The notes under the pieces were generated by a model. It saw only the letters and a program-made list of their open reading frames with translations, made no database searches and was not told the origin of the DNA. A DNA stretch of 24,991 nucleotides from a virus. Positions 64-20,480 of the stretch are shown here, in pieces. The stretch is taken from IMG/VR virus record IMGVR_UViG_3300043543_000216, positions 1-24,991 of that record; one strand, 5' to 3'. Every line of letters starts with the position of its first letter. Within the stretch, counting starts at the first letter, position 1. A program made the position numbers and the translations under genes.

Positions 64-1530
64 GTAACAGTGCCTGCGCAGTGGCTGATTTACTGCGACC
101 GGTCGGTGGGTGCTGGCGGCGGAGGCGGAGGGCGCGTAACAGTGCCTGCGCAGTGGCTGATTTACTGCGACTAGTCGCAGCTTGGTCGTGCTTTCGAGGA
201 ACGCAACGGTAACAGTGCCTGCGCAGTGGCTGATTTACTGCGACGACGCACCCCCGTGGGCCGCTGCCCGCAGTGAAGCTATAACAGTGCCTGCGCAGTG
301 GCTGATTTACTGCGACCTGGATGCGTTGTGCCAGATCGAGGACGCCCCCTGATAACAGTGCCTGCGCAGTGGCTGATTTACTGCGACGCAACCGCCTTGG
401 ACAGCCTCCCCTCGGCCACCAGGTAACAGTGCCTGCGCAGTGGCTGATTTACTGCGACCCGCCCGAGGCCGTCCTCGTTGTGACGGATGCGAGGTAACAG
501 TGCCTGCGCAGTGGCTGATTTACTGCGACGGTCTGGAGCTGGTGCCGGTGAAACAAGCACGGAGAGTAACAGTGCCTGCGCAGTGGCTGATTTACTGCGA
601 CTCCGTGCGTGGCGGGCGCGAGGGACTGTTTGTGCCGTAACAGTGCCTGCGCAGTGGCTGATTTACTGCGACGCCCGCTGGTGCCCCGTGACGCACTGCC
701 GCCGCCGCCGGTAACAGTGCCTGCGCAGTGGCTGATTTACTGCGACCGGGTTGGGGGGGTCGTTTTCAGAGGTGTCGACATGTAACAGTGCCTGCGCAGT
801 GGCTGATTTACTGCGACGAGTGCCCTTGTCTGCACTGCCAAGCACGGAGGTTTGTAACAGTGCCTGCGCAGTGGCTGATTTACTGCGACCTCGCAGGGAT
901 CCGGGGCCGCACCACGCGACCCGATGTAACAGTGCCTGCGCAGTGGCTGATTTACTGCGACCCCTGTGTGTGGCAGGCCGGACTGGTGCTTGGTGGCGTA
1001 ACAGTGCCTGCGCAGTGGCTGATTTACTGCGACGAACACCCTGCGCCCAATTCGCACCGCGGGGATAGGTAACAGTGCCTGCGCAGTGGCTGATTTACTG
1101 CGACCGGGTAGCGGACTTAGAGGCGTGGGCGGCCCGAGAGTAACAGTGCCTGCGCAGTGGCTGATTGACTGCGACGCCGGCTGAGTCGTGGTCTGGCATC
1201 ACAACCACGGTAACAGTGCCTGCGCAGTGGCTGACTTACTGCGACGGTATGCCGATGGCGGCTGCCTAAATCTGGAACCGTAACAGTGCCTGCGCAGTGG
1301 CTGATTTACTGCGACTCAATTCTTCGTTGTCACGCAGGCCAGCGTCCGCCGTAACAGTGCCTGCGCAGTGGCTGATTTACTGCGACCGGGGCACTTTTGG
1401 CCAGCCTGATTTGGCGGCTCCGTAACAGTGCCTGCGCAGTGGCTGATTTACTGCGACGGTAACACGCGACCCCTACGCCTCAAGCGCGGCTGGTGTAACA
1501 GTGCCTGCGCGTTGGCTGAGCTATTGCGAC
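64..1530 (+). CRISPR. CRISPR-like array 1, intact part (21 repeats, 20 spacers)
   Basis: Twenty-one 36-bp repeats start at 64, 136, 209, 281, 352, 423, 494, 566, 637, 711, 782, 854, 926, 998, 1069, 1140, 1210, 1280, 1351, 1422 and 1495. They are separated by different spacers of 34-38 bp. Each repeat begins GTAACAGTGCC (first base sometimes A) and ends GCGAC. Between these lies a hairpin, CGCAGT, a 9-nt loop, then ACTGCG. The first 15 copies are identical after the first base. Copy 16 has GATTGAC, copy 17 GACTTAC, and copy 21 is clearly degenerate, so the array decays rightwards, which puts the leader on the left. No cas gene is in the window, so type and activity are unknown. The unit is about 72 bp, a multiple of three, which creates long spurious reading frames. 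Confidence 0.85.
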
Positions 1531-1565
1531 TGCCTGCCGGGCAGCGGTGCTATACTTCTGGGGTA

Positions 1566-2275
1566 CGTGATATTGCCAGCGCAGTGGCTGACTTACTGCG
1601 CCCCCAGGTCGGGGTTTCCAACCTCCTTTACCCGGCCTGGGTGATGGTGCCTGCGCAGTGGCTGATTTACTGCGACCTATAATGCCCACGCCATCGAGCA
1701 ACATGACCTCGCGTCGCCAATGCCCGCGCGGTGGCTGAGTTACCGCGACAGGGGGACGCCCGCCCAATGAGAATTTCAATGAAGTGTCGCAATGACCGCG
1801 TGCAACGGGATAACCGACGCAATGCTTGCGCGGCGGCTTGGCGGCTGCGACTACTAGGCATTGCGATTGCGGCGCGAGTCAATGCCTGCGCGGCGGCTGA
1901 GTAGTCGCGATCGGCCGAGGGCAAGTAGTGCGTGCGCCGTGCTGGCAATCTCGGCAACATCGCTACGCTTGGGCAGCGGTTTGGCGGCTGCCACTCTGGC
2001 TGCGATCACATCGAAGTGTCTGCGTGCCGACTTGTAGAGCCACGCCTGCGCAGCGGTCCGCTTGCTGCGACAAGGCCCCGCGTGACAATCGCGATGCCCG
2101 CGTGGTGGCTTGGTTACCGCGACTTGGCGACGTTGGAGAACGAGGCGAGCGCGCGGACGAAGTGCCGCGAGACGCGATGCCCGCGCGGCGGCCTGAACGC
2201 CGCGACAACCGCAAGCGAAGCCGCGCGCAGTGAGACACGGCAGTAGGCCGGCGCGGTCGCTTGTTCGCCGCGAGA
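1566..2275 (+). repeat. Degenerate distal tail of array 1 with covarying hairpins
   Basis: About twelve decayed repeat units continue array 1, ending near 1602, 1676, 1749, 1820, 1851, 1911, 1958, 1994, 2071, 2123, 2206 and 2275. The 5' part of the repeat is lost and only the hairpin plus terminal GAC or similar stays recognisable. Stems differ but mostly still pair: CGCGGT/ACCGCG (1714-1749), CGCGGC/GTCGCG (1880-1911), GGCAGC/GCTGCC (1966-1994), CGCAGC/GCTGCG (2049-2069), CGCGGC/GCCGCG (2176-2206). The unit near 1789-1820 is barely recognisable. Spacers here vary from about 23 to 54 bp. No protein-coding gene is supported. Confidence 0.7.
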
Positions 2276-2371
2276 GGCTGCGTTGTGCCACGTTTCCGAT
2301 GGCCCAATTGGTGCATGGCTCTCGATTTGCGTTGCCTAACCCTTTGCGGTATCTTGTCTTATGCCGGTGCT
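2276..2371 (+). promoter_or_regulatory. Leader / candidate promoter of array 2
   Basis: This is a 96-bp repeat-free, relatively AT-rich stretch between the array 1 tail and the first repeat of array 2. A sigma70-like pair, TTGCGT at 2327-2332 and TATCTT at 2350-2355, is spaced by 17 bp and would start transcription just before the array. CTTATGCCG, shared with the array 1 leader, sits at 2358-2366 next to the first repeat. The shared motif and the sharp switch from decayed to perfect repeats mark this as an internal leader. Promoter function is inferred. Confidence 0.5.
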
Positions 2372-4486
2372 CCGAAAGTGCCTGCGCAGTGGCTGATTGA
2401 CTGCGACTACGTGTCGTGGCTGGTGGGTGCGTTGCGTCCGCGCCGAAAGTGCCTGCGCAGTGGCTGATTGACTGCGACCCGGAGCCATGGACGCCTTCAA
2501 GCTGGAGCACCGGCCGAAAGTGCCTGCGCAGTGGCTGATTGACTGCGACGTCACCGAGTGACGCAGTTCGTCACGCCCCCTTCCCCGAAAGTGCCTGCGC
2601 AGTGGCTGATTGACTGCGACGCGGCACACGCCCCGCACCACGGCCGCCAGCCGCCGCCGAAAGTGCCTGCGCAGTGGCTGATTGACTGCGACTGGAGCTG
2701 GACCTTCCCACGCGGCCCCATCCCTTGCCCGAAAGTGCCTGCGCAGTGGCTGATTGACTGCGACGGGGTTGGCCATCTTTGCTTTCCTGCCAGATCTCAT
2801 CCGAAAGTGCCTGCGCAGTGGCTGATTGACTGCGACGACACCCCTGACCGGCCGCAATGTGGTGGTGATACCTCCGAAAGTGCCTGCGCAGTGGCTGATT
2901 GACTGCGACTTGCTGGGGGGGGTTCCAGCAGCAATTCCGACGGCCCGAAAGTGCCTGCGCAGTGGCTGATTGACTGCGACGAGTCGCAGCCGAGTCGTAG
3001 ATTCCAAGAACGCAACCGAAAGTGCCTGCGCAGTGGCTGATTGACTGCGACCTGGATGGCCTTGCCCGGCAGGCGGCCCCGCAATCCCCGAAAGTGCCTG
3101 CGCAATGGCTAATTGACTGCGACGGCCAGGCCGGTCGCCGCCAACCGCCGCAGCGCCTCCCGAAAGTGCCTGCGCAGTGGCTGATTGACTGCGACCGGCG
3201 TCCGCCCCGCGAGGAGCGCGACCTGCTTGTCCGAAAGTGCCTGCGCAGTGGCTGATTGACTGCGACTGCAAAGCGGTTGCCATCAAGACGGCAAACGGAA
3301 TTCTGATAGTGCCTGCGCAGTGGTGGATTTACTGCGACGTGTAGTGCAAAAGCACTATTTGGGCGGCACTGGCCGAAAGTGCCTGCGCAGTGGTGGATTT
3401 ACTGCGACCCACGCCCATCGTCGCGACATGCGGCACATGGATGACCGAAAGTGCCTGCGCAGTGGTGGATTTACTGCGACGACCCCGCGGCGATTCGGGC
3501 TTGGCTGAGCGAGCCGGCCGAAAGTGCCTGCGCAGTGGTGGATTTACTGCGACCTACTTAGGCGGTATTTCCGTTCGGACGCTGTGGCCGAAAGTGCCTG
3601 CGCAGTGGTGCATTTACTGCGACGCCGTCGAACTCGGCATGATTGCCGAGCACTACTCTCCGAAAGTGCCTGCGCAGTGGTGGATTTACTGCGACAAGCG
3701 GCTCAAAGCATTCGGGGCGGGCGTGCAGCCCCGAAAGTGCCTGCGCAGTGGCTGATGTACTGCGACGAGGAGGTGCGGTCGCGCGTGCTCGGCGCCCTGC
3801 TCCGAAAGTGCCTGCGCAGTGGCTAATGTACTGCGACCGCGCTGGATTTGGGTTGGTGGCTTTCGGTGGTGTGCTGAAAGTGCCTGCGCAGTGGCTAATG
3901 TACTGCTGCGACCCGCTGACCCAGCACGGCTTCCACGACGCGACTACCCGAAAGTGCCTGCGCAGTGGCTAATGTACTGCGACCTGCCTTCGGGGGCGAC
4001 CTCCCACGCATCCCGCAACTGAAAGTGCCTGCGCAGTGGCTGATGTACTGCGACAATTGGACCGAATTGGCCCGAATTGGCCCGAATTGGCCGAAAGTGC
4101 CTGCGCAGTGGTGGATTTACTGCGACGATGTTGCCCCGATCTTACTTGTCACCTCGCCCGTCCCGAAAGTGCCTGCGCAGTGGTGGATTTACTGCGACCT
4201 CGCCAGCCAGTCGCGCAACTCGCCCACCGGGTATAGCCGAAAGTGCCTGCGCAGTGGCTGATTGACTGCGACCTGCTCGACGTGCAGAGGCCTGTCCTAC
4301 TGAACGGCCGAAAGTGCCTGCGCAGTGGCTGATTGACTGCGACGCCGCAACGACGAATGCCGGCGGCGCGGGCAAGTGCCGAAAGTGCCTGCGCAGTGGT
4401 GGATTTACTGCGACGATCGATATGCCAATAAAGGCCGAACTAGCGCTGATCCGAAAGTGCCTGCGCAGTGGTGCATTTACTGCGAC

Positions 4487-4521
4487 GATGTCCAGGAGGA
4501 CTGTTGAGCCGTACTTGACCG
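4487..4521 (+). other. Spacer with exact 35/35 match to a virion gene in this window
   Basis: This spacer begins GATGTCCAGG and ends CTTGACCG. It is the perfect reverse complement of 20093-20127. The identity covers the whole spacer and stops exactly at both repeat borders. A rightward transcript of the array would be antisense to the mRNA of the gene starting at 20088, covering codons 2 to 14. On the strand matching the spacer, the protospacer is flanked 5' by ATCGATGA and 3' by ATCAT, neither of which matches the repeat. Confidence 0.95.
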
Positions 4522-4626
4522 CCGAAAGTGCCTGCGCAGTGGCCGACCTACTGCGACGAGGGCCATCGTTTCGGGACCGCTCGACACAGATAAACTGAAA
4601 GCGCCTGCGCGGTGGCTGATTCACCG

Positions 4627-4748
4627 CGACGAGGTGGAGCTCGACAGCCACGACAATTGACAATGCCTGCGCAGTGGCTGATTTACTGCGACGAGGTGGA
4701 GCTCGACAGCCACGACAATTGACAATGCCTGCGCAGTGGCTGATTTAC
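4627..4748 (+). repeat. Tandem duplication of one repeat-spacer unit (62 bp)
   Basis: The segment beginning CGACGAGGTGGAGCTC occurs at about 4627 and again at 4689. Each copy includes the same short spacer, ending CACGACAATTGA, and the following hairpin repeat. The copies are identical up to GATTTAC, after which the second continues with CGCAAC instead of TGCGAC. This is duplication of a whole unit, not new spacer capture. Confidence 0.85.
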
Positions 4749-4860
4749 CGCAACGTCTGACGGGTGGCATCCCCAACACGATGCCTCTCTGAAACTGCCT
4801 GCGCAGTGGCTGATCTACTGCGACCCACCCACGCAACGCGACCGGCACACGCGCAACCAC

Positions 4861-5757
4861 ATGATCATGCCTGCGCGGTGGCTTTTAAACTGCGACCGGC
4901 AGCTTGGGCACATGCCCGCCCTTGACCATGCTCAAATGCCTGCGCGGCGGTTTCGTTGCCGCGACCGAGCCGAAGGGACTGTCGGGCTGGAAGGACGTGA
5001 TCAGCAACTGTGCCGGCCAAATCGGGAGAACTCCTGCGCGGCGGTTTGGTTGCCGCGACGCCACACCCACACGCCGGATGCAAGGACGAGCCAGCGCCAC
5101 GACGCCTGCGCGGCGGCCTCATTGCCGCGACACCACCAAGGCAAGGGCATCCGCGGCCGGGTCGCTCGTCGCGACGCGCAGTCGAAATGCCAGCGCGGTG
5201 GCTTCTTTATCGCGACCTCCCGCGGCGCGCGGCTGGCCAACCAAAAACCGACATGTCTGCTTGGCGACTTGGTTGTCTTGACTTGCGCCTCGGCCACGAC
5301 CGTGGTTGTGAAAAAGTGATCAACGCCTGCGCGGCGGCTTGGTTGTCGCGACTCGCGCCTCGGCCACAGCCTCGGTTGTGGGAAAGTGGTCAATGCCTGG
5401 GCGGCGGCTTCGTTGCCGCCACTCGTGCCTCGGCCAGTATCTCAGCCCTGACAAACACACCGGGCCTGCGCGGCGGCTTCGTGGCCGCGACATGGTCAGC
5501 TTGGTGAGCCGTCCAAGGAATCCGCAAAACCTGCGCGGCGGTTTGGTTGTCGCGACGCGGAGCTGACGGCAGCTCCATTGACACGACCATCTGATCCAGA
5601 CAAGATCCTGGTTTGCCGATACCTGCGCGGGGGGGTCATGCCCGCGAGCCAGCGGTGTGTCCGAGCGACATCATGCCTGCGCGCCGGCTAGGGGCGGCGC
5701 GACGAGAAGAGCCTGGTCTCACGATATTCCCTGCGCGCGGGGGCGAGTTCGCGCGAC
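4861..5757 (+). repeat. Degenerate distal tail of array 2 with covarying hairpins
   Basis: About fourteen decayed units end near 4896, 4965, 5059, 5131, 5175, 5216, 5281, 5352, 5422, 5491, 5556, 5648, 5703 and 5757. Their common form is roughly CAATGCCTG, stem CGCGGC, 9-nt loop, GCCGCG, AC. Stems change in pairs: CGCGGT/ATCGCG (5216), GGCGGC/GCCGCC (5422), CGCGGG/CCCGCG (5626-5646), CGCGCC/GGCGCG (5680-5701, 10-nt loop), CGCGCG/CGCGCG (5734-5755, 10-nt loop). The unit ending at 5281 has mostly lost its stem. Spacers are 12-66 bp. Three consecutive spacers (from about 5282, 5353 and 5423) share a CGCCTCGGCCA-like start, so they arose by duplication. No coding gene is supported here. Confidence 0.7.
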
Positions 5758-5847: not shown

Positions 5848-6126
5848 ATGAACCAACTTGGTAACGGGACCGGCTCGCCATACGTCGATCTGTTCTTAAG
5901 GCTACTCAGGGAGGTCGGCTTCCAGGGAGTGCTCGTGATGGGCCTTCTGTACGCCGGTTGGCAGGTCGGCCGGGAACTCGTCAGTGCCCACGCGGCGTTC
6001 CTGCAAACGCTGAGCACCGCGATGCAGGCGCAGAGCGAGAGCCTGTCGCAGATCGCCAAGAGCATGCGGGCCCAAGAGGAGCTGCTGAGAAACCTATCCG
6101 ATCATGAACCAAAACCACGCCCCTGA
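5848..6126 (+). CDS. Small membrane protein, possibly lysis- or packaging-associated
   Basis: This 92-aa protein has one hydrophobic segment at about residues 23-41 (VGFQGVLVMGLLYAGWQVG). A long amphipathic, probably coiled-coil helix follows at about 45-85, and the tail is charged and proline-rich. It is the first gene after the array tail, 90 bp downstream of the last hairpin. No strong ribosome site (a weak GAAG) or convincing promoter is visible. It overlaps the next gene by 23 bp. The single membrane segment plus position before the terminase would suit a holin-like or other small membrane protein, but no family signature is recognised, so function is open. Confidence 0.6.
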   Translation: MNQLGNGTGSPYVDLFLRLLREVGFQGVLVMGLLYAGWQVGRELVSAHAAFLQTLSTAMQAQSESLSQIAKSMRAQEELLRNLSDHEPKPRP

Positions 6127-6508
6127 ACCGGAGGCGATCGATCAGCCGGACCAGCCAGCGGCTGGGGAAGGGCTTCTGGAATCGCCCGGCCAGGAAGATC
6201 TGATCAATGACGCGGTTGAGAAGCTGGTTCTGGAAATCCAGGCCAAGCGAGGCCAGCGACTCAACAAGCAGGCCCTGGCACAGGCCCTGCTGGTGCGATT
6301 CGGTGGCTACCAGGCCATCGCGAAGCTGATCTACGAGCTGTACAAGACTAGCAAGAAGGGTTCGAGCACTCGCAGCAACATCGTCCGGATGATCGTCAAC
6401 TGCATCGCTTCGGAGAGGATTCAAGACGAGGCCAATCCGCTCCTCGATCTAAAGCCGGATCAGCTCCGGAGTCTGATGCGCCATGCCCTGAACAACTTCC
6501 GTGAGTAG
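6104..6508 (+). CDS. Probable terminase small subunit (by position)
   Basis: This 134-aa acidic, mostly helical protein ends just inside the start of the large terminase gene (8-bp overlap). The first 30 residues are proline- and acid-rich and look disordered. The body contains Lys/Arg-rich helices (residues about 45-100) that could bind DNA, including a QALLVRFGGYQAIAKLI helix pair. Small terminase subunits usually sit directly before TerL, are 100-200 aa and have an N-terminal helix-turn-helix. That, and nothing stronger, supports the call. The alternative is an unrelated small regulator of the packaging operon. Confidence 0.45.
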   Translation: MNQNHAPEPEAIDQPDQPAAGEGLLESPGQEDLINDAVEKLVLEIQAKRGQRLNKQALAQALLVRFGGYQAIAKLIYELYKTSKKGSSTRSNIVRMIVNCIASERIQDEANPLLDLKPDQLRSLMRHALNNFRE

Positions 6509-8333
6509 CCGCCCGCAACTGCCCTGGAGCACCGGCAACATCGACCCGTCGGCCCCGGTCTGGCGGGAACGCGCCAAATCCATCGAAAAGATCGAGCAGG
6601 TCACCAAGCGGCGCAGGCCGAAGAGCTGCCCCTCCCTACCGGCGAGCAAGGCCCACCTGGAGTGGCTCTACGAAATCCTGGAAACCTACGTGGCGCAATG
6701 CACCGACGCCCTGGCGCTATACCGCGCCCTGCCGGCCTGCGAACGCTTCCACGCCTCGATGGCCAGGCAGAGGATCGTCTCCGGAGGCAACCAAGCTGGG
6801 AAGTCCCTGTGCACGGCCATCGAATTCGCGAGGATCCTCAGGGGCAGGGATCCCTACCATAAGCGAGCCGCGAAGGGCATCCGTGCCATGGTCGTCGCCT
6901 ACGATGAAGACCACGTGGCGGACGTGATCTGGCAAAAGCTTTGGTGGCCCGGCGCATTCTACATCATCATCGACAGGGAAACTGGCCTTTGGCGAAGCGT
7001 GAGGTGGGACGAGAACGACCCATCAAGGCTCGACCCCGGTGACGCGAAGAGGCGGAGCGAATGGTACCCCTCGCCTCCCATCATCCCCGCAAGCGAGGTC
7101 CTCAGCCTCTACTGGGTGAAGAAGGGCCGAGGAGTGCCTGACCGGGTGATTCTGAACAACGAATCGATGGCGACCTTCCACACGAGCCGCGGGGCGCCGC
7201 GCCAGGGCGTGGAGCTGGACTACGCTTGGTTCGACGAGGAAATCGAGAACCGTCGGTGGCTGCCCGAGATTTCCGCCCGGCTGGTGAAACGTGACGGGCT
7301 GTTCGTCTGGTCGGCCACGCCGCAGCACGCCACCCACCATCTGATGGAGCTGCATGCCCAATTCCTGGCCGGCGAACCGAACATCGAGGAGTTCACCCTA
7401 TCGACGGGCGACAACCCCTTCCTGTCCGAGGATGGGAAAACGGACCTCTACCGGAAGCTGTCCGCCCTAGGCGACGATGAACTGCGCGTGCGGTGGCACG
7501 GAGAATACGCGGCCGAGAGCCGACGGATTTACCCGCAGTTCGACCCTTCCATTGGTCAGAACGGGGTGACATCCTTCCGGATTCCCGATGACTGGATGCG
7601 GATTTTGGCCGTCGATCCTGGCACCGCGTTCGCCGCCGCGCTGTTCCTGGCCGTGCCGCCAGACGGCGGAGAGCTGCACGCCTACGACGAGGTATTCCTG
7701 CGAAACACGACCGCGGCCGAGCTGGCATCCCAGGTGAAGCTGAAGCATGGATCGAAGTTGCAGTTCGAGGTCTTCATCATCGACGGGAAGACCGCGCATC
7801 AGACGCCGCAGGGATTCGGCGTCCGCATCCTCGACCACTACGCCCGGGCATTCGAGATAGTCGGCCTGTCGTCACGGCGCACCGGGTCTTCCTTCCTGTA
7901 CGGGAACCCGGATCCGGAAAGCCGCACGATCATTCTGCGGCAGATGATGCAGCGCTATGAGGACGGCACTCGCCGCTTAAAGGTCCACAGGGAGAACTGC
8001 CAGTACCTGATCAGACAGATCCAGAGTCGGTATTACTCCAAGGCGAATGCCGAGAAACGCGAGCGAGCCGATCGTCCGAACACCGTCCTCTGGCGATGCG
8101 ACCTAGTTGACTGCCTCGAATATGGAGCCGCCTGGGTCGCCGAGATAAGCGGTGGCGTGGACGAGCCGTTCGCGTGGTACAAGCCGGCCAGCTCGCGGGA
8201 CACGACCAATCAGGTACAATTGGGTGATGGTGCCTACCCGGACTTCCTGAGAGCGTATAATCGCGCCAAGCAGCAGACTAGCGGGCTGCATTCCCATTCG
8301 TTCACGGCAGCATTGAAAAGGATCGCATGGTGA
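6501..8333 (+). CDS. terL: Terminase large subunit (DNA-packaging ATPase and nuclease)
   Basis: This 610-aa protein translocates phage DNA into the prohead and cuts it. The N-terminal ATPase has a Walker A motif GGNQAGKS (about 95-102), a Walker B strand LDYAWFDEE (about 239-247) and a coupling motif SATP (271-274). The C-terminal RNase H-like nuclease shows the expected acidic residues in ILAVDPG (D372), FIIDGKT (D428) and CDLVDCLEY (D534/D537). All catalytic residues appear present and the length fits the family. It starts with GTG, overlapping the upstream stop by 8 bp, which suggests translational coupling. The downstream gene overlaps its end by 7 bp. Confidence 0.95.
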   Translation: MSSRPQLPWSTGNIDPSAPVWRERAKSIEKIEQVTKRRRPKSCPSLPASKAHLEWLYEILETYVAQCTDALALYRALPACERFHASMARQRIVSGGNQAGKSLCTAIEFARILRGRDPYHKRAAKGIRAMVVAYDEDHVADVIWQKLWWPGAFYIIIDRETGLWRSVRWDENDPSRLDPGDAKRRSEWYPSPPIIPASEVLSLYWVKKGRGVPDRVILNNESMATFHTSRGAPRQGVELDYAWFDEEIENRRWLPEISARLVKRDGLFVWSATPQHATHHLMELHAQFLAGEPNIEEFTLSTGDNPFLSEDGKTDLYRKLSALGDDELRVRWHGEYAAESRRIYPQFDPSIGQNGVTSFRIPDDWMRILAVDPGTAFAAALFLAVPPDGGELHAYDEVFLRNTTAAELASQVKLKHGSKLQFEVFIIDGKTAHQTPQGFGVRILDHYARAFEIVGLSSRRTGSSFLYGNPDPESRTIILRQMMQRYEDGTRRLKVHRENCQYLIRQIQSRYYSKANAEKRERADRPNTVLWRCDLVDCLEYGAAWVAEISGGVDEPFAWYKPASSRDTTNQVQLGDGAYPDFLRAYNRAKQQTSGLHSHSFTAALKRIAW

Positions 8334-8704
8334 CCGACAAGGCTTCGTGGGAAATGCCCCATGTTGACGTGGGGGAGATCGTTTACTACAAGAGCGGCCT
8401 GGAATCCAGGACCTGGACGCCCTTTCTGGTTTCGGCCGTGGCCAGGAATCCAAGCGGCGAGGGGCATATCGCCGGGTTCGTGGGGATCTTCCGTACCAGC
8501 ACGGGCGCCGAATGCCGCGACATGGTGCTGCACATCGATGACCCGCGGCTCCAGGACCCGACGTTCTACGGGCGACTGATGGCCGAGGGGGATGGCGGCA
8601 TCTGGGATTACGCCCCCTGGACCAAGAGGCTCCAGCAGCAGTTCAATTTGCTCCGGGATCGGATCAGCAGCCTGGAGAAAATCGTCAGGAGTTCCAAGGC
8701 GTAG
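8327..8704 (+). CDS. Hypothetical phage protein with C-terminal coiled coil
   Basis: This 125-aa protein lies between TerL and portal. It overlaps the TerL stop by 7 bp and has an AAGGA site four bases before its ATG. Residues about 12-80 are beta-rich (DVGEIVYYKSG through AECRDMVLHID) and could form a small barrel. The last 30 residues (KRLQQQFNLLRDRISSLEKIV) form a heptad-like helix suited to oligomerisation. I do not recognise a family. Its place in the packaging/portal module suggests a structural or assembly role. Confidence 0.65.
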   Translation: MVTDKASWEMPHVDVGEIVYYKSGLESRTWTPFLVSAVARNPSGEGHIAGFVGIFRTSTGAECRDMVLHIDDPRLQDPTFYGRLMAEGDGGIWDYAPWTKRLQQQFNLLRDRISSLEKIVRSSKA

Positions 8705-8710
8705 TCGCAA

Positions 8711-10771
8711 ATGCCCGTTTCAGAGGCGTTCAGGGCGGCCGTTCAGGCCTGGCAAAAGGTCCTCCAGATCGCCCTGGACTACAAGCAGATCCACTTCCAG
8801 GCCGACGCCGACGAGGCGATGCGGTTCTATGCCAGGTCGAACTACGAGTTCCTTTACACCCTGGACACGGACGACCTGGCCTCGCAGTACAACATGCCAG
8901 CCGTCGGCGAGCCGCGGCACAAGATGGCGGCGAACCTGGTCTCGAACATGGTGCAGGTGCTCCTGCCAGTCCTGTACCACCGGAACCCGACGAGGCTCGT
9001 GACGGCCAGGCTGCCAGACGTTGACGTGCAGCTCATGGCACAGCACGCCGCCACGATGCATGCGGCCCTCGATCCGGCCACCGGGCAGCCCGCCCCCATC
9101 CCAATGCCTGGGATGATGGATCAGCACTGGAAGGTGAAGGCGCAGCTCATGACGGCATTCCTGAACGCCACGCCAGGCGAGCTGAACCTGCGCAGGGAAT
9201 GCCGGCGAGCAATCACGGACGCACTGATCAGCGGCATGGGCATCGTCTGGTGCGAGCTGGTGGAGACCGCCTCCGGCATGCTTCCAGGCTCGTTCTACGT
9301 GTGCAGTCGCGACGTTCTGTTCGATAGCGACGAAACGGAGCTGCGGGACTGCCGTTGGGTGGCAAGACGGAAAAGGGTTCCCGTCTGGCAGGCGGAGACG
9401 ATGTTCGGATGGCCACGAGGCGATCTGAAGGGAAATGCGGAGGGGAGGACGAACCAGGGGTGGATCGATGGCGGCGGCCGCGGCCAGGAAACGCGGCTGA
9501 CGGACGAGCAGACAACGAACGACCAGATCGAATACTGGGAGATCTACTCCAGGATGGGGCTGGGCGGTCGGCTTCGCGGGCTCAACGAGGAAGCACAGGC
9601 CATTCTCGACCAGCTTGGGCAGTATGTCTATCTGGTCGTCGCGAAGGGGGTGGACTATCCGCTAAACGTTCCTCCGCACCTGTTCGAGTGGCCGCCAGAC
9701 CAACTTCTCGCGGAGTTGCAGGCCAGGCTAGCGTGGCCCATCCCGACCTACAAGCGGGCTAGGAATCCATGGCCCTTCGCGGCCCTGTGGTTCCATGAGC
9801 GCACCGATTGCGTCTACCCGCAATCCCACGTGATGCCGGCCATGTCGTATCAGAAGGCGATCAACTGGATTTATACCTATTTGCTAGGTAGATTGCGGGT
9901 TGCCAGCCGGACGTTGATGGCCTGCCCCCAGGGGCTCGACGAACGGGTGAAGGAGCAGATCCTGTACGGCGGCGATCTAGAGCTGATCGAACTCAAGACC
10001 CACGACATCGAGAAGTTCGGCGACATTCTGCGATACATCCAGGTCCCCGAGGTCACGGCCGAGCTGTGGAAGGTCTTGTCGGCCGTCAAGCACGAGTTCG
10101 AGCTGGCCACGGGCGTAACCGAGCTGCTGCAAACGGGGATGACCTCCCAGGCCATGCGATCGGCGACGGAGGCCCAAGTCAAGCAGGGGTTGGCCCAGCT
10201 CCGGCCCGACGACATGGCGACCATGACCGAGGAGTGGATGGGCGAGATGGCGGCCAATGAGGCGTTCGCCGCGGAACTGTTCCTTGGTCCCGAGGATGTC
10301 GCCCCGATCTTCGGAGAGCCGTACAATCCAGGTGACCCCGCGGCCGGCATCCCGGAGCAGATGGGACCGCTCACGCGGCTCTGGATGGAGGTGGCCCATT
10401 CGCCAGACCTGTCCAGCGCCTCATCGACCCTCGAATATCGAGTCGAGAGCGGCAGCGCCAGGAAGCCCAACAAGGAGTGGCAGCAGTCGCAGGCGATGCA
10501 GGCCATGCAGACGTTCATGCCGCTGTTGATGCCGCACTACCAGCAGACCGGTGACCCGACGCAGATCAATCGCCTGCTAACCTACTGGGCGCGGGCGCAA
10601 GACATCGAGGACTACGAGAGCCTGCTGCTGCCAGACCGGAGGGCCGAGATGGCCGCCATGCAGCAGGCCATGCAACAGGCACCTAGTGGCAACCGACGAC
10701 CGCCGCCGTCGGAGGCGGCTACCCAGCCCCTTCCGGAGGAGGCGGCACGGATTCTCGCATCCCTGCAATAG
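8711..10771 (+). CDS. Portal protein (head-to-tail connector)
   Basis: This 686-aa protein is expected to form the dodecameric ring at the capsid vertex through which TerL pumps DNA. Supporting evidence is position directly after terL, size in the range of podovirus portals, and an architecture with an Asn/Met-rich N-terminal helical zone (MAANLVSNMVQVLL), a clip/stem region, and a long helical C-terminus rich in Gln, Ala and Met (about 590-686) like portal barrel or crown segments. No enzymatic motif is seen. No strong ribosome site precedes the ATG, so coupling to the upstream gene six bases away is likely. Codons around 10295-10311 resemble the start of one array spacer. Confidence 0.8.
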   Translation: MPVSEAFRAAVQAWQKVLQIALDYKQIHFQADADEAMRFYARSNYEFLYTLDTDDLASQYNMPAVGEPRHKMAANLVSNMVQVLLPVLYHRNPTRLVTARLPDVDVQLMAQHAATMHAALDPATGQPAPIPMPGMMDQHWKVKAQLMTAFLNATPGELNLRRECRRAITDALISGMGIVWCELVETASGMLPGSFYVCSRDVLFDSDETELRDCRWVARRKRVPVWQAETMFGWPRGDLKGNAEGRTNQGWIDGGGRGQETRLTDEQTTNDQIEYWEIYSRMGLGGRLRGLNEEAQAILDQLGQYVYLVVAKGVDYPLNVPPHLFEWPPDQLLAELQARLAWPIPTYKRARNPWPFAALWFHERTDCVYPQSHVMPAMSYQKAINWIYTYLLGRLRVASRTLMACPQGLDERVKEQILYGGDLELIELKTHDIEKFGDILRYIQVPEVTAELWKVLSAVKHEFELATGVTELLQTGMTSQAMRSATEAQVKQGLAQLRPDDMATMTEEWMGEMAANEAFAAELFLGPEDVAPIFGEPYNPGDPAAGIPEQMGPLTRLWMEVAHSPDLSSASSTLEYRVESGSARKPNKEWQQSQAMQAMQTFMPLLMPHYQQTGDPTQINRLLTYWARAQDIEDYESLLLPDRRAEMAAMQQAMQQAPSGNRRPPPSEAATQPLPEEAARILASLQ

Positions 10772-10783
10772 GAGAACGCATCA

Positions 10784-10930
10784 ATGCCGGTTGATAGGAA
10801 GTTGATGAAGAAGCTCAAGGCGGAGTACGGCCCACGCAAGGGGGAGCGCGTGTACTACGCGCTCGAAGCCCAGGGCAAGATCAAGCCGCGCCATTCGGAG
10901 AAGTCGTCCAGGAAGGGCAAGTCTCGATGA
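10784..10930 (+). CDS. Small basic protein (48 aa)
   Basis: This short gene has a strong AGGAG site at 10770-10774, nine bases before its ATG, and ends in an ATGA overlap with the next start (10927-10930). The product is 48 residues with about one third Lys/Arg, including LMKKLKAEYGPRKGERVYYA. Small Lys/Arg-rich proteins of this kind often follow portal genes in phages and may bind DNA or scaffold. No defined function is recognised. The ribosome site and coupling make it a credible gene despite its length. Confidence 0.75.
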   Translation: MPVDRKLMKKLKAEYGPRKGERVYYALEAQGKIKPRHSEKSSRKGKSR

Positions 10931-11451
10931 AGCGCGTGGAGAGCTACGAGGAGTGCTATCGCAGGCTCATCGCTCGGGGGGTCTCTCCCAAGCTCGCCGA
11001 CATGCTCGCGGCCAGGAAGCCGCCTGGCGCGTGCACGGACCGGGAGTTCATGCACGGCAAGCGCCATGCGGATCAGTTCGAGAACGAACCGGAGGTGGGT
11101 CGCTTGTACAGGGCCATCGCCGCCAGGCACGGCGTGAGCACCCAGGGCAAGTTCTACATGTCTCAGCTCGCCGATTTCCCGGGCGACCCCAGGGCATGGA
11201 TCGACAGCAAGGACGACATCCGGCGGATTTGCGAGCAGCGAGGCTGGGGCTGCGAGGGCATCGTCAACGTGCCGCCGCCGCGATACAAGGACGATGGGGC
11301 GGCCGATGATGGCCCCTACATGGTGGCCGAGGATATCGTCGAGGAAGAGTTTCAGTCGCATGTGGCCGAGAATCCCGACCTGGCGAGGCTGCCGGCCGAG
11401 AAACAGGCCGAGTACAAGGCGGACCTGAGGGAGCGTCTATCCGGACGGTAG
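10927..11451 (+). CDS. Hypothetical virion-module protein
   Basis: This 174-aa protein is translationally coupled to the upstream 48-aa gene by an ATGA overlap, with GGAAGG about ten bases before the start. The middle contains a conserved-looking segment with two cysteines, ICEQRGWGCEGIV (about 100-112), after a GDPRAWIDSKDDIRR stretch. The C-terminus is charged and helical (EEEFQSHVAENPDLARLPAE). Two cysteines alone do not make a zinc finger. It sits where scaffold and capsid genes are often found, but it is too short and has no major-capsid features. Confidence 0.7.
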   Translation: MKRVESYEECYRRLIARGVSPKLADMLAARKPPGACTDREFMHGKRHADQFENEPEVGRLYRAIAARHGVSTQGKFYMSQLADFPGDPRAWIDSKDDIRRICEQRGWGCEGIVNVPPPRYKDDGAADDGPYMVAEDIVEEEFQSHVAENPDLARLPAEKQAEYKADLRERLSGR

Positions 11452-11454
11452 GTC

Positions 11455-12597
11455 ATGCCCCTGCGAACGTTCCGTGACGTGATCCAGCATGGGATCGACT
11501 ACCTGGGCGGAGCCCCGCAGGACGCCGTGGCCCGCGATCTCAGGGGCGCCGCGATGGCCGCCCTCGACCACCTCGGCAACCTGCGGAGGTGGAACGCCTA
11601 TTTGAAGCAGGGACGTACCATCCTGTCGGCACCCTATGAGACCGGCACGATCCAGTACACCCACTCACCGAACCGCCTGCTCGTGCTCACGGGCGGGACC
11701 TGGCCCGCCTGGGCCGCGAATGCCACGATCGTGATCAGCGGTCGGCCACATATTTCGGTGGCCCGGCTCGACGACACGACCCTGATGCTGCATCGCACGC
11801 TCAATCCTGGCGCGGACGTGGCCGCTGGAACGTCCTTCAAGCTCATCCAGGACATTCATCCGGCGCCAGAGGATTTCCTGGAGCTGGCCGACCCCAAGCT
11901 GGGAGGATCGCTCTGGAGGCTGAGGCGAGTCACGGCTGAAGAGCTGTGGCGACTGAGGCATCAGCAGGTCATGGTCGGAGACCCAGCCTACTTCGCCATC
12001 GGCCAGTATCCGCTGGAAATGGGTCGGAAGGCGATCTTTCTCTGGCCCGCTCCACAAAGCGACATGGACCTGGACTACGCATACCACGGCAAGCCGAGAG
12101 CCCTGAGGTGGACAGGCTACGAAGCCGAGGCGACCCTGGGCACGGTTTCGGCCACGGGTGGAAGCACGTCGGTTACCGGAACGGGGACCGGGTTCAAAGC
12201 CTCCATGGCTGGGGCCGTGATTCGATTCGGCACCAACTCCACGACGGTTCCCACCGGCCTGGATGGGATTTCTCCGTACGCGGAGCAGGCCATCATCGGC
12301 TATGTGCAAAGCACCACGTCGCTGTTTCTCGCCTCCGCCCCTGAAAACAGCGCATCCGGGGTGAAGTATATCATCTCGGACCCGATCGATGTGCCCGACT
12401 ATCTGTGGCCGGCGTACCTGAGGGGATTCGAGCTGGAACTGGCCAGACGGCGCAGGATGGGTGGCATTCAGGAGATCTTCAATCTTTGGCGAGAGGCGAT
12501 CGACCACGCGGCCGCGGCCGACGGTCCGAGCTACGAGCCTCGCAGCGCATACGGCCCGCACGGGACGCGGCGACGACTCTCCGACTATCCGCCTTGA
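11455..12597 (+). CDS. Head-tail adaptor / tail tubular A-like protein
   Basis: This 380-aa protein starts three bases after the previous stop. The N-terminal helical part (RTFRDVIQHGIDYLGG, AALDHLGNLRRWNAYL) and the C-terminal helices (PAYLRGFELELARRRRMG) resemble podovirus adaptor proteins that join portal to tail (T7 gp11 or P22 gp4 type). Between them is a beta-rich insert (about residues 228-310) starting GTVSATGGSTSVTGTGTGF, a motif also found in the next tail gene. The role is inferred from order (portal, adaptor, gp10-like) and this architecture, not from a specific catalytic motif. Confidence 0.6.
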   Translation: MPLRTFRDVIQHGIDYLGGAPQDAVARDLRGAAMAALDHLGNLRRWNAYLKQGRTILSAPYETGTIQYTHSPNRLLVLTGGTWPAWAANATIVISGRPHISVARLDDTTLMLHRTLNPGADVAAGTSFKLIQDIHPAPEDFLELADPKLGGSLWRLRRVTAEELWRLRHQQVMVGDPAYFAIGQYPLEMGRKAIFLWPAPQSDMDLDYAYHGKPRALRWTGYEAEATLGTVSATGGSTSVTGTGTGFKASMAGAVIRFGTNSTTVPTGLDGISPYAEQAIIGYVQSTTSLFLASAPENSASGVKYIISDPIDVPDYLWPAYLRGFELELARRRRMGGIQEIFNLWREAIDHAAAADGPSYEPRSAYGPHGTRRRLSDYPP

Positions 12598-12622
12598 TGC
12601 ACGCCGATGGAGCGGTTGAAGC

Positions 12623-12910
12623 ATGAGCGAACGGCCGAGGGCCTATCAGTCCATCCGCGTTTTCACTGGGCTGGTAACGAACGCCGACCCAGAGGATATT
12701 CCGCCCGGGGCTTCCGTCGTCCAGGAGAATTTCTGGCTCGTCACGCCCGGCGAGATGCAATCGCGGGACGGATTTCTGACGCAGGCGCTAAGCGGCGGCA
12801 ACTCGACGAACTCGAATGACGTGATCGCCGGCACGTTGTTCGTCACGCCTGGCCAGAGCTGGATCGTCTATCAGCTCTCCGACGGTCATGTGCTCGCCGG
12901 CTATTTCTAG
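12623..12910 (+). CDS. N-terminal fragment of gp10/tail-tubular-B-like tail protein
   Basis: This 95-aa frame has GGAG ten bases before its ATG. The sequence TNADPEDIPPGASVVQENFW followed by ESQ-like text ending in MQSRDGF resembles the N-terminus of P22 gp10-type and similar podovirus tail proteins (pattern LxPxDxPPGAxxxADN, then RRGF). It ends at TAG 12908-12910, and the rest of such a protein continues in the -1 frame from about 12904. It is best read as the 5' part of one gene, with the second part at 12922-15030. The slip site is discussed in the findings. Confidence 0.65.
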   Translation: MSERPRAYQSIRVFTGLVTNADPEDIPPGASVVQENFWLVTPGEMQSRDGFLTQALSGGNSTNSNDVIAGTLFVTPGQSWIVYQLSDGHVLAGYF

Positions 12911-12921
12911 GCCAGAACGCC

Positions 12922-15030
12922 ATGGGCGCCAAGCAGATCACGTCCACACCGTTCAACACGTTCATGCCCCTGTCGTTCGCCAAGACGAGGCATGGGTTGC
13001 TGCTCATGGTCAATGGGCTGGATCGTGGTGGCGTGTGGGATGGCGTCACGAACAGCATCTTTGAGATCGGCATCGATCCGCCGGACACTGCGCCGAACGC
13101 GACGCTGATCGCCGGAGGAGCGCTTTCGGACGGCCAGTACGATCTCTACTACAGGTTCGTCGATCTGTACGGCAATCCATCCGACCTTTCGCCGGTCCAA
13201 ACGATCACCGCCACTGCCAACAAGGCCTTTGACTGGACATTCGGCGTCAGCTCGCAGTCCCGCGTCACCAAGAGGGAGTTGTGGCGAACGCTGGCCGACG
13301 ACAGCAGAGTCGTCTACCGCGTGGCGGTCATCGACGACAACACGACAACCATGCTTGTCGAGGGCACCTCGGACGAGACACTGCGCGCGAACGCCCAGAA
13401 AGATCCGAATACCATCATGCCCCTGTTCGTCGAGCCATTCGGTCGGCCGCACGCGAATCGTTTCGGCGTTCCGCCCGACCACAAGGCCGTCGTGGCCCTG
13501 TTTCAGGATCGCTCATTCTGGGCGGTGGACGTGGCCTACAACGTGGGGACGGTCACGGTCACGAATGGCAGCACAAGCGTGACGGGCACGGGCACGAACT
13601 GGCCATCCACGTTCAAGAACCGCTATCTCTACTTGATCGGGGCGGCAAACAACCAACAGGCCTACGTGATCGATTCCGTTCCGTCCGCCACGTCGCTCGT
13701 CCTGAAGAAAGCCTACTCTGGCACGAGCGGCACCTACAGCTACGTGATTCGGCCGGCGCCGTCCGAGAGGAACAAGCTCTATTTCAGCTCGGCCGACTAT
13801 CCGGAGGGCGTGCCGATCCAAAACACGTACACTCTCCAGGAAAATACCGGCGACGACAACGAGATCACCGGCCTGATGCCGCACGGTTCGTATCTCTACA
13901 TCCTGAAGGAGAGGCATATCTACCGCCTCTCTTTCGTGCGGCAACCGGAGATCGACATCGCGGTTCATCTCCATGCGTTTCGTGGCGCCTTCAATCAACG
14001 GTGCTGGGACCGCGTGGAGGGTACGGCCTACCTGTTCGACCAACACGGGCCGTATCGTCTGACCGAAAACGGCAACATCGACCCGATCGGGTCGCCCATT
14101 CAGGATTTCTGGAGGAAGGAATCGCCCGACTTCTCGATGTCCAAGTGGTTCTTCGTGCGGGCGAACCCGGCACAGGAGACGATCAGGTTCTATTACTCCG
14201 TGTCGGGCGACACGCGCCCGACGCGGGCGCTGTGTTTCCAGTACCGCACGAATCACTGGTGGATTGAGGTCTACAACTGGGCCTTCGGCGCCGCCGTGCT
14301 GCATGCTGGCGGCGGCGCGGTTCGGCAGTACAACGGCTCCACATCGAACCGCTGGCTGCGATTTGGTGGCACGAAGCTGGATGGCGTGTCTGAATCGATG
14401 GGTACCGTGCGCGGCACGGTCACCAGCGCCACGTCCAACACGCTGACCGACTCCTCGGCTGTCTTCCCCACCGAAGTCGTCGACGTGCCGATCACCATCG
14501 TGTCTGGGACCGGCAGCGGCCAGACCCGCCTGATCGCCGCGAGGCTTTCCAATACGTCGCTGCAAATCTCGGGAACGTGGTCCACGATTCCAGACACAAC
14601 GAGCACCTACCAACTCGGGGCCATCGCCTGCAAGTACAAGTCCCCGATATTCGCGTGGCTGCCGATCGAGATCCACCAGGACCGCCAGTTTCGCCTTATC
14701 TATGTGCCCGTATCACAGGATGTGATCCTGGAGCTGCGCAAGTACACGAATCACTCATCGACCCCGGAGACCTTCAACGTCCAGTTCATCGACGAGGGCA
14801 GCGGCATTTCCGTCGCCGGTGGTTCGCAGGTCATAGCCCTGAACCTCCACAGAAACCGCAACGCCCTGGGCGAGGCCTCCGGCATTCTGCGTGTTTTCCT
14901 GCCTGGCCTATCCGAGGATCGCACCGAGGGCGAGAAATGGGTGCAGTTCGAGCTGTCGGGCTATTCGAGCGCCGACGGCATCCGCATCCGCGGCATTGAG
15001 CTGCTAGGCGTGCCGGATGAGAGGCGCTGA
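12922..15030 (+). CDS. gp10/tail-tubular-B-like tail protein, main part
   Basis: This 702-aa frame is beta-rich and carries features of podovirus tail-hub/needle proteins: a propeller-like series (GGVWDGVTNSIFEIG, RVVYRVAVIDD, MPHGSYLYILKERHIYRL, YLFDQHGPYRLTENG). It also has a GTVTVTNGSTSVTGTGTNW insert (nt about 13546-13755) and a second GTVTSATSNTLTDSSAVF module (nt about 14404-14620). No ribosome site precedes the ATG, and the frame is open upstream past 12860, which supports production by frameshift from 12623. The fused product would be about 800 aa, a normal size for the family. It overlaps the fibre gene by one base (TGATG). Confidence 0.65.
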   Translation: MGAKQITSTPFNTFMPLSFAKTRHGLLLMVNGLDRGGVWDGVTNSIFEIGIDPPDTAPNATLIAGGALSDGQYDLYYRFVDLYGNPSDLSPVQTITATANKAFDWTFGVSSQSRVTKRELWRTLADDSRVVYRVAVIDDNTTTMLVEGTSDETLRANAQKDPNTIMPLFVEPFGRPHANRFGVPPDHKAVVALFQDRSFWAVDVAYNVGTVTVTNGSTSVTGTGTNWPSTFKNRYLYLIGAANNQQAYVIDSVPSATSLVLKKAYSGTSGTYSYVIRPAPSERNKLYFSSADYPEGVPIQNTYTLQENTGDDNEITGLMPHGSYLYILKERHIYRLSFVRQPEIDIAVHLHAFRGAFNQRCWDRVEGTAYLFDQHGPYRLTENGNIDPIGSPIQDFWRKESPDFSMSKWFFVRANPAQETIRFYYSVSGDTRPTRALCFQYRTNHWWIEVYNWAFGAAVLHAGGGAVRQYNGSTSNRWLRFGGTKLDGVSESMGTVRGTVTSATSNTLTDSSAVFPTEVVDVPITIVSGTGSGQTRLIAARLSNTSLQISGTWSTIPDTTSTYQLGAIACKYKSPIFAWLPIEIHQDRQFRLIYVPVSQDVILELRKYTNHSSTPETFNVQFIDEGSGISVAGGSQVIALNLHRNRNALGEASGILRVFLPGLSEDRTEGEKWVQFELSGYSSADGIRIRGIELLGVPDERR

Positions 15031-16223
15031 TGTTCACGCTCCAGGCGAGCCAGATCCTGGGCAGCCTCGTCGGCAAGGTGCCGCAGGAACTGATCGACGC
15101 GCTGCAGGCCCTGCTGGGAAACTGCGCCGCTCCGCTGGAGCACCGCGGCCCAATCAAGTTTGAACCCCCGCCCCCGGAAATCGAAATCCACAACCACTTC
15201 AACGCCGTCCAGGGCGCCGTCTACTGGGCCAAGGCACGATTCAACTGGGTCAACCGCCCCGGGAACGACTCGTACGTTGATTGCTACCTGTGCCTCGATC
15301 GGAGAGGCAAGGCAACCCTGCCCACGAATGTGCGAGTGTACCTGCCCCGGCAGTCGGCAATCAACGAGACAAAGAAGAGCGGGCAGGATCCGAACGTCGT
15401 CGCCGATGCCGTGATCCTCTTCGCCTACGACGCCAATGGAGAGGCGGTCTGCATCAGCGACTACCTAGACGACAAGATCGGCACCATCAAGGCCTGGGAT
15501 CGCCCGGATGACGAAATCCCGCCAGGATGGAAACTGCTGACCTCGATAAACGGCACCTCGCTCTGGGATGCGGACGCGAAATATCCGAGACTGCTGCTTC
15601 CATACCTCGACCCGACTGTGTTCATCGGCGAGGATTATGTTCCCTTCCAGACGGCCGGCAATACGTTCGGAACGCGCAGCCACAGTCATGCGGCCCACCA
15701 GATCCCCTCGGACAGCTTGATCACCAGCTCGGACGGTGGGTTTTTCGGTTACACGGACTACACCGTTCTGTACATCAGCGGCGAAACGGGATGTGCCCGC
15801 TCGAACGTCTACGCCCACCTGCCGCGACACAGACACTTTTACGAGATGACGGGCTTTACGATCGTCCAGGCATACCCTGGACGGCCAGGCAACCAGATCG
15901 GAGTGCTTACCGGGCCATCCGGCCCAATACCAATCTGCCCTGGCGACCTGAGGACGGACCCGAACTGTCTGGTTACAACCACGCTGCCCATCCCCATCTA
16001 TGAACCCATCTGCTATTTCTACGGCCCCTATGAGGTACTGGGGCACAAGCACCCGGTCAGCATCGACGTGGGGGCCCACAACCACTCGTTCAGCATTCCG
16101 CCTCACTCGCATACCGTGAACACGGTGGGCAGGATACTGGAGCATGACAGAAGGGACCATCTGGATCCATCCATCGTGACGAAATGGATCATCCGCTACG
16201 ACAACTCGCACACGGCCGCGTAA
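15030..16223 (+). CDS. Tail collar-type fibre protein with HxH motifs
   Basis: This 397-aa protein probably forms a trimeric fibre or spike contacting the host. Residues about 150-170 (IGTIKAWDRPDDEIPPGWKLL) match the phage tail-collar pattern G(T/S)I..W....IP.GW. Six His-x-His motifs are visible: IHNHF (54-56), HSH (218-220), HRH (267-269), HKH (339-341), HNH (350-352) and HSH (359-361). In trimeric phage fibres such as T4 gp12, HxH motifs coordinate metal along the axis. An AGAGG site lies five bases upstream and the start overlaps the previous stop (TGATG). Receptor specificity cannot be read from sequence. Confidence 0.75.
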   Translation: MFTLQASQILGSLVGKVPQELIDALQALLGNCAAPLEHRGPIKFEPPPPEIEIHNHFNAVQGAVYWAKARFNWVNRPGNDSYVDCYLCLDRRGKATLPTNVRVYLPRQSAINETKKSGQDPNVVADAVILFAYDANGEAVCISDYLDDKIGTIKAWDRPDDEIPPGWKLLTSINGTSLWDADAKYPRLLLPYLDPTVFIGEDYVPFQTAGNTFGTRSHSHAAHQIPSDSLITSSDGGFFGYTDYTVLYISGETGCARSNVYAHLPRHRHFYEMTGFTIVQAYPGRPGNQIGVLTGPSGPIPICPGDLRTDPNCLVTTTLPIPIYEPICYFYGPYEVLGHKHPVSIDVGAHNHSFSIPPHSHTVNTVGRILEHDRRDHLDPSIVTKWIIRYDNSHTAA

Positions 16224-17221: not shown

Positions 17222-17834
17222 GAAGATCGACATCGTGAGTGCCGTTACCGACGAGGAAGCAGAGCTGCTCTCAAAGCTCGCGGCTGGTAAGTTCGTCATC
17301 GAAATCGGGACGGAATTCGGGAAGAGCACCATTGTGATGGCGAGGACCGCCAAGCTGGTCTATGCCGTTGACCACCACTACCTGGCGCCCAAGCTCACCG
17401 AGCCATGGGATGTCGAAAAGTGCGTGGAACAGGTCGGCGCCCTGCTGCGCAACCTGCGCAAGTACAATGTCGCCGAGAAGGTTATCCCGGTAATCGGTGA
17501 TTGTGGCAAAGCCTGTAGCTACCTCGCCCCAGGCAGCTTCGATATGCTGTTCATCGATGCTGACCATACGTATACTGGCGTCAGGCACTCCCTCTGGAGC
17601 GCGATCGGATTGCTGGTCGCCGAGCCGATCATCGCGTTTCACGATTACGGCCGCTGTCGTCCCGAATACGACTGGCACGTGACGGAAATCGTGGATTGCC
17701 TGGCCGAGGAATGGAACGCGCACCTGACGGTTGTCGGGCACCTGGCGGCAATTCAATCGAAACGCAACTGGCAATTCAGCCTGGATGGATTGGCCGAGGC
17801 ACTACGAAAGGCGAAGCAAAAATGCGGGCTCTAG
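17214..17834 (+). CDS. Class I SAM-dependent methyltransferase
   Basis: The ATG at 17214 gives 206 aa and starts inside the end of the upstream gene; an earlier in-frame ATG (16980) would overlap that gene by over 240 bp and is unlikely. Motif I is FVIEIGTEFGKST (about 27-39, ExGxxxGxS). An acidic strand DMLFIDADHTYTGVRHSLW lies at 110-128, followed by IIAFHDYG (139-146). The FID.DH.Y.GV plus FHDY combination is typical of Methyltransf_24-like enzymes, often O-methyltransferases in glycan or small-molecule modification. The neighbours (glycosyltransferase-like, epimerase, oxygenase) suggest a sugar or surface substrate. Confidence 0.85.
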   Translation: MDEKIDIVSAVTDEEAELLSKLAAGKFVIEIGTEFGKSTIVMARTAKLVYAVDHHYLAPKLTEPWDVEKCVEQVGALLRNLRKYNVAEKVIPVIGDCGKACSYLAPGSFDMLFIDADHTYTGVRHSLWSAIGLLVAEPIIAFHDYGRCRPEYDWHVTEIVDCLAEEWNAHLTVVGHLAAIQSKRNWQFSLDGLAEALRKAKQKCGL

Positions 17835-20091: not shown

Positions 20092-20480
20092 TCGGTCAAG
20101 TACGGCTCAACAGTCCTCCTGGACATCTCATCGATAACTTCGAGCAGCGACTCCGTGCGTTGTTGGGAGATGTCAAGCCGCCACCCTTCATTCAGCCAGG
20201 GCCACCGCGAGATTTCTACAATCCCTCGGCTCTCGCTCAGAATGCCGCCACCTCGGCCATGGCCGCGCGGATCGCTGGCCAGACCGCCGCGGCAAACCTG
20301 CGGAACCAATTCCTGCCGCAGCTAGCCAGCTACAGGCAAAAATGGCAGGCGGATAGGGCATCCCAGGCATTCAACGCCATTCAGCAAGCACAGCAGCTCC
20401 AGCAGGCAGCCAACGCATTGCATAGGCAGAGGCTCCAGGCCTTGTTGTCGTTCCTGTCCTCGTTGGGAGTCGGCATCTAG
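20088..20480 (+). CDS. Candidate internal virion protein; target of an array spacer
   Basis: This 130-aa protein is coupled to the previous gene by an ATGA overlap. After a Pro-rich N-terminus (LGDVKPPPFIQPGPPRDF) it is almost entirely helical and Gln/Ala-rich (NAIQQAQQLQQAANALHRQR), ending in a hydrophobic tail like that of its upstream neighbour. The function is probably a small ejected or structural protein, judged only from composition and context. Bases 20093-20127, codons 2-14, are the exact complement of the spacer at 4487-4521. Confidence 0.65.
   Translation: MIGQVRLNSPPGHLIDNFEQRLRALLGDVKPPPFIQPGPPRDFYNPSALAQNAATSAMAARIAGQTAAANLRNQFLPQLASYRQKWQADRASQAFNAIQQAQQLQQAANALHRQRLQALLSFLSSLGVGI
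20093..20127 (-). other. Protospacer: exact complement of spacer 4487-4521
   Basis: All 35 bases are identical to the spacer on the minus strand. The flanks (5' ATCGATGA and 3' ATCAT on that strand) differ from the array repeat, so this is not a copied array unit. It begins five bases into the coding region, next to the ribosome-binding zone, where an antisense RNA or bound effector could block translation or transcription. Confidence 0.95.

Follow-up and report, generated by a model that had tools for sequence, protein, structure and literature searches.

An exact self-matching spacer in CRISPR arrays beside the terminase operon of a podovirus-like phage

Arrays and phage genes on the record

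The DNA analysed (hereafter the window) comprised the entire IMG/VR record IMGVR_UViG_3300043543_000216, a 24,991-bp fragment of a podovirus-like phage that encodes TerL, a portal and structural proteins (Table 1). Two CRISPR arrays, both read left to right into the terminase operon, occupy the left part of the record. Regular 36-nt repeats, near identical in the leader-proximal parts, separate unique spacers of mostly 34-38 nt, with homologous leaders at one end of each array and decay rightward. Both leaders carry CTTATGCCG immediately before the first repeat. Distal spacers are irregular in length and array 2 ends in repeat traces at 5673-5703 and 5727-5757. A search of Rfam found no match, and the repeat pattern was not encountered as an array in viral contigs or in 84,980 genomes, the latter containing only nine single matches. 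Array 2 also contains alternating blocks of loop variants (i.e. GGCTGATTG, GGTGGATTT and GGCTAATGT) at 2372-4521, hinting at recombination between arrays or at changing leader-end repeats. The same unusually short 26-nt spacer is present in two successive units (4631-4656 and 4693-4718), which is a recent duplication.

Table 1. Positions of the arrays, the self-matching spacer, its target and the main phage genes in the window
Feature	Position	Strand	Remark
Leader of array 1, truncated by contig start	1..63	+	homologous to leader 2
CRISPR array 1: 31 repeats, 36 nt, GTAACAGTGCCTGCGCAGTGGCTGATTTACTGCGAC	64..2274	+	diverged from 1495 onward
Leader of array 2	2275..2371	+	homologous to leader 1
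CRISPR array 2: about 46 repeats, CCGAAAGTGCCTGCGCAGTGG...ACTGCGAC	2372..5757	+	diverged from 4522 onward
Repeat directly 5' of self spacer	4451..4486	+	hairpin intact
Self-matching spacer, 30th of array 2	4487..4521	+	exact match to 20093-20127
Repeat 3' of self spacer, first of diverged zone	4522..4557	+	stem intact
Small TerS-position protein	6104..6508	+	placed by position; weak similarity in L024/L025
Terminase large subunit	6501..8333	+	PHROG 2, E 3.7e-14
Portal protein	8711..10771	+	PHROG 156, E 4.8e-12
Virion structural / tail protein	12922..15030	+	PHROG 3287, E 1.4e-10
Upstream gene, 183 aa	19540..20091	+	directly precedes target gene, overlapping start
Targeted gene, 130 aa	20088..20480	+	start overlaps stop of gene at 19540 (ATGA)
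Protospacer	20093..20127	-	flanks in spacer orientation: 5' TGA, 3' ATC

Phage genes from 6501 onward encode the terminase large subunit, the portal and a virion structural protein, followed by a methyltransferase, a nucleotide-sugar epimerase and a 2OG oxygenase and then by several proteins of unknown function, including the product of the targeted gene. The three enzyme genes (methyltransferase, nucleotide-sugar epimerase and 2OG-Fe(II) oxygenase) lie at 16980-19497 within the structural gene cluster and perhaps have a role in surface or virion glycan modification. A neighbouring 808-aa protein, for which no relatives were found in viral contigs, contains in-frame repeats at 21651-22199 (three 183-nt units) and at 23170-23358 (five copies, 33 nt apart).

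The gene order terL-portal-10927-11455-12623-12922-15030 recurs, wholly or partly, in dozens of viral contigs, among them contigs of 40-60 kb. The closest relative (i.e. L018; 92.6% identity across 7063-15777) is an 8.7-kb fragment that covers neither the arrays nor the target. TerL lies well inside the contig in relatives, with a phage DNA helicase gene upstream of it in one of these (i.e. L037), indicating that the array site corresponds to an inner part of such genomes. The arrays adjoin an operon encoding a small membrane-like protein, the TerS-position protein and TerL, with 90 bases between array and operon. GC content is equal in the array and phage parts and flat across their junction. 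Because the site is internal in relatives and GC content is uniform, we take the arrays to be phage-borne; reads alone could prove that both parts form one molecule.

An alternative, raised in the initial annotation, was that the arrays belong to a host and the remaining genes to its prophage; in that case, or if the contig is chimeric, the self match would be an ordinary host anti-phage spacer. In its favour, the array is absent from every relative having sequence left of TerL. K-mer repeats at array-like spacing were observed in two relatives (L028 and L071), and L028 produced no match to the hairpin model in a search of relatives that left out L071. The short distance to the terminase operon, the helicase gene upstream of TerL in L037, the flat GC content and the absence of the repeat as an array from the 84,980 genomes all argue against a host origin, as do the absence of a tRNA from the window and of an integrase among the genes scanned in it. 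With the array running directly into the terminase operon, we regard a host or chimeric origin as decidedly unlikely.

No cas genes were detected in the window by Pfam, PHROGs or PADLOC, a result that would also fit host arrays. The contig starts in leader 1 and such genes could have been lost by the contig cut to its left. The relatives produced no match to Cas1 or to the Cas12f/TnpB zinc ribbon. As no effector is present on the record, the array subtype was left unnamed.

The self-matching spacer and its target

The self-matching spacer is the reverse complement of its target at 35/35 bases (E 7e-14 for the record alone). Identity ends at both spacer boundaries, where the repeat flanks (i.e. 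...GCGAC / CCGAAAG...) differ from the target flanks (i.e. ...ATCGATGA / ATCATAG...). Coincidence of match boundaries with repeat boundaries is a mark of spacer uptake and would be unlike an assembler error. When spacers were compared with the non-array part of the window, the best match was 35 bases as compared to a mean of 19.9 and a maximum of 21 for shuffled copies, in agreement with the initial view that chance could not account for it. A search of the window with all spacers found this single self match, the other spacers being at shuffle level or about 1 base above. Similarly, at the protein level, the self match alone exceeded shuffled peptides in searches of the window and relatives.

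In the ORF that begins at 20088, the target takes up bases 6-40, roughly codons 2-14, and the guide would be antisense to this gene, as had been proposed; the direction of transcription is supported by the homologous leaders, by decay at the distal ends and by the preference for G-U among one-sided changes in the hairpin. The accompanying description of the target as a virion gene found no support, the 130-aa protein having no match in Pfam or PHROGs. No relatives of this protein were found in viral contigs, and an AlphaFold model made without an alignment consisted of one long helix at low confidence.

A guide lying over codons 2-14 at the translation start, and antisense to the mRNA in the supported direction, could act in autoregulation. 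The crRNA would repress this late gene by guiding either a DNA-binding effector that does not cut or a complex that targets RNA, so that expression is timed or limited. Type IV-A and Cas12m effectors provide a precedent, as both silence without cutting (PMC11656645), and perfect identity in an older spacer is in keeping with such a function. This is, however, a single self spacer among about 70, for which antisense orientation alone has a 50% chance; no effector was seen in the window, the target gene is without known function and the same spacer or target was found in no relative. We consider autoregulation unlikely. More doubtful still is the specific form in which an exact guide, antisense to a late-region gene at its start, is kept by the phage as an internal switch and read by an effector that targets RNA or binds its site without cleavage.

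The 5' flank of the target is TGA, which under type V rules had been noted as not T-rich. This description holds, and type V is nevertheless not excluded by it because CasPhi-2 accepts 5'-TBN (PMC9942878). As compared to known PAMs, TGA fits TBN and fails TTTV, TTN, TTR, GTN and DHR. The fit to TBN says little, since this motif occurs at 16.6% of positions in the phage. Inference of a PAM from the arrays failed as the searches yielded no exact target for another spacer. No pairing is formed between the mRNA flank and the four repeat-tag bases adjoining the self spacer, so that the tag would not restrain a type III complex.

Hairpin conservation in diverged repeats

The repeat folds as a hairpin whose stem stops 2 nt before the spacer. 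A hairpin directly before the spacer is the geometry of type V guides; in CasPhi (Cas12j, type V-J), it stands at the 3' end of a 36-nt repeat. The present repeat shares this CasPhi-like arrangement, its hairpin lying directly 5' of the spacer, whereas its sequence presumably differs from that of the CasPhi repeat and, in contrast to CasPhi phage systems, no effector protein was seen on the record.

Covariation was assessed in the 27 leader-distal diverged repeats (zones 1495-2274 and 4522-5757). Positions in the 5' part and loop were changed in up to 24/27 units while the stem was kept, with 157/162 stem cells paired. Both bases were changed in 32 cells as compared to a mean of 18.8 and a maximum of 25 across 2,000 permutations, counts of this kind being open to inflation by kinship among the sequences. 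An independent tool found 97.2% of cells paired versus 87.6% in shuffles and 26 double changes versus 8.7, and sliding of the strands reduced pairing to ≤60%. One stem pair was inverted (i.e. C-G to G-C) in two units (1959 and 5387). Among the one-sided stem changes, 10 cells became G-U as compared to 3 that became A-C or C-A, indicating that the + strand is the constrained RNA.

Three tandem-duplicated units of repeat plus spacer (5247, 5317 and 5387; spanning 5247-5456) differ from each other at 18-20 of 70 bases (about 26-29%), and every stem difference between units 5317 and 5387 preserves pairing. The divergence of these units may be usable as a clock of array age. Maintenance of stem pairing by compensatory changes despite this divergence indicates, at the level of sequence comparison, that the distal units are old and that selection acted over a long time to keep their hairpin as RNA, suggesting that they did not simply decay. 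We know of no earlier description of compensatory evolution within distal repeats. In Pyrococcus abyssi, distal spacers with degenerate repeats gave no detected crRNAs (PMC3124441), and the diverged distal units of the present phage may thus be functional or not.

These changes also bear on whether the arrays are remnants without an acting effector, in which the self match would be neutral. Remnants would be consistent with the lack of cas genes in the window and with the irregular lengths of the distal spacers. Compensatory changes in 27 old repeats, however, mean lasting selection on the hairpin, and the leader-proximal repeats are near identical; we view this explanation as very improbable.

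Source and tolerance of the self spacer

Other spacers may be directed against phages. Spacer 3624-3659 (+) matches a phage DNA methylase gene (i.e. Synechococcus phage S-CBS3 gp40) at 28/36 bases (E 0.03), in the reading frame of the gene and over the stretch LGNHAEF, which is suggestive of a target in this gene. Spacers 172-208 (array 1, +) and 2981-3015 (array 2, +) are alike at 26/35 bases (score 17 versus ≤10 in shuffles), as if they sampled one site in diverged targets, and a search with a degenerate pattern of the common site found nothing. On the reverse strand, both of these spacers are open in one common frame, reading LRSxxxRxxCD. The other spacers had no exact match in phages, plasmids or 39 related phage records, nor by translated search, and beyond the self match and S-CBS3 gp40 no further convincing match to mobile elements was obtained from phages or plasmids.

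The self spacer lies on the old side of array 2, yet among well-formed repeats just before the diverged zone, and is unmutated. Only 12.6% of 35-nt windows are identical between the phage and L018. As so few windows stay identical at this divergence, the spacer most likely derives from the phage itself or a near-identical sibling. The initial annotation had proposed uptake from a competing relative followed by tolerance; tolerance remains the most likely of the readings offered there, while a clearly diverged competitor as source is disfavoured by the exact identity.

The reading that we prefer, held at even confidence, is that of a phage-borne array with a self spacer derived from the phage's own genome, or from a near-identical one, and tolerated without active self-cutting. 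Pre-crRNA would be transcribed rightwards from the leaders, and an effector encoded off the contig (i.e. beyond position 1 or by the host) would use the guides mainly against other phages. In an array active during infection, the replicating phage genome would be a natural source of spacers, and the self spacer would have been acquired from replicating DNA of the same phage or of a near-identical sibling. Persistence without lethal cleavage would follow if TGA is not a functional PAM, if the effector does not cut or if cutting comes too late, leaving the spacer as a tolerated bystander that would do no more than weakly restrain siblings or the gene at 20088. With a single self spacer found, such uptake would seem to be rare or, as a rule, purged, and the present spacer to be harmless or useful.

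Tolerance agrees with an exact match bounded by the repeats, with its being the only self match among the spacers and with the misfit of TGA to TTN, TTTV, TTR and DHR. Transcription of the arrays agrees with the covarying hairpin and with the G-U bias that marks the + strand as RNA, and anti-phage use with at least one spacer resembling a phage gene and with the two spacers that mark one site in diverged targets. Routes to tolerance are also known, self spacers usually being tolerated through PAM or protospacer mutation, an Acr or missing cas genes (PMC6990116). Against an unsuitable flank, TGA would be permitted by the TBN PAM of CasPhi-2 (PMC9942878); the repeat tag would give no protection from a type III system. 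Retention of 35/35 bases in an older spacer is explicable also by selection on the spacer, and the SPV viruses mutated their own copies (PMC6858448) whereas this phage has not.

The spacer might instead be an interviral weapon, taken from a competing sibling and cutting siblings with a good PAM while the phage itself is protected by a PAM change. The mini-arrays of SPV1 and SPV2 are known to act in this manner (PMC6858448) and huge-phage spacers target other phages (PMC7162821). The SPV viruses, however, escape self-targeting by mutation or deletion of their own copy, whereas all 35 bases match here; identical 35-nt windows would be scarce in a sibling of L018-like divergence, and no sibling carrying the target was found in viral contigs. 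We judge this use somewhat unlikely.

Virus-borne arrays, anti-sibling spacers, very long viral arrays and tolerated self spacers have already been described (PMC6858448, PMC7162821, PMC10076291, PMC6990116, PMC6079278). Within the part of the literature covered, no report was found of an exact self match retained in a phage's own array, and novelty is thereby unproven. Such a match opens to experiment the question of whether a phage tolerates, or even employs, an array directed against its own genome. The portogloboviruses SPV1 and SPV2, the best-studied case of virus-borne arrays, likewise carry arrays that have leaders and lack neighbouring cas genes (PMC6858448). Their arrays contain 1-2 spacers as compared to about 77 units in the present phage, their repeats match host repeats whereas the nine single genome matches of the present repeat did not identify a host, and their own target copies are mutated. 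Arrays on huge-phage genomes (PMC7162821) and the long arrays of landfill viruses (PMC10076291) share with the present ones a location on phage genomes, some anti-phage spacers and decay of the old end. Huge phages have a median of six repeats, with up to 187 spacers in one viral element, and a self match is not described in the passages covered; in the present phage, diverged repeats maintain the hairpin by compensatory change. Prophages of Clostridioides difficile also carry arrays with genome-targeting spacers, the Cas proteins there belonging to the host (PMC6079278). TIGR-Tas arrays were dropped as a candidate since the 35-nt spacer is identical to genomic DNA along its full length, which would argue against them.
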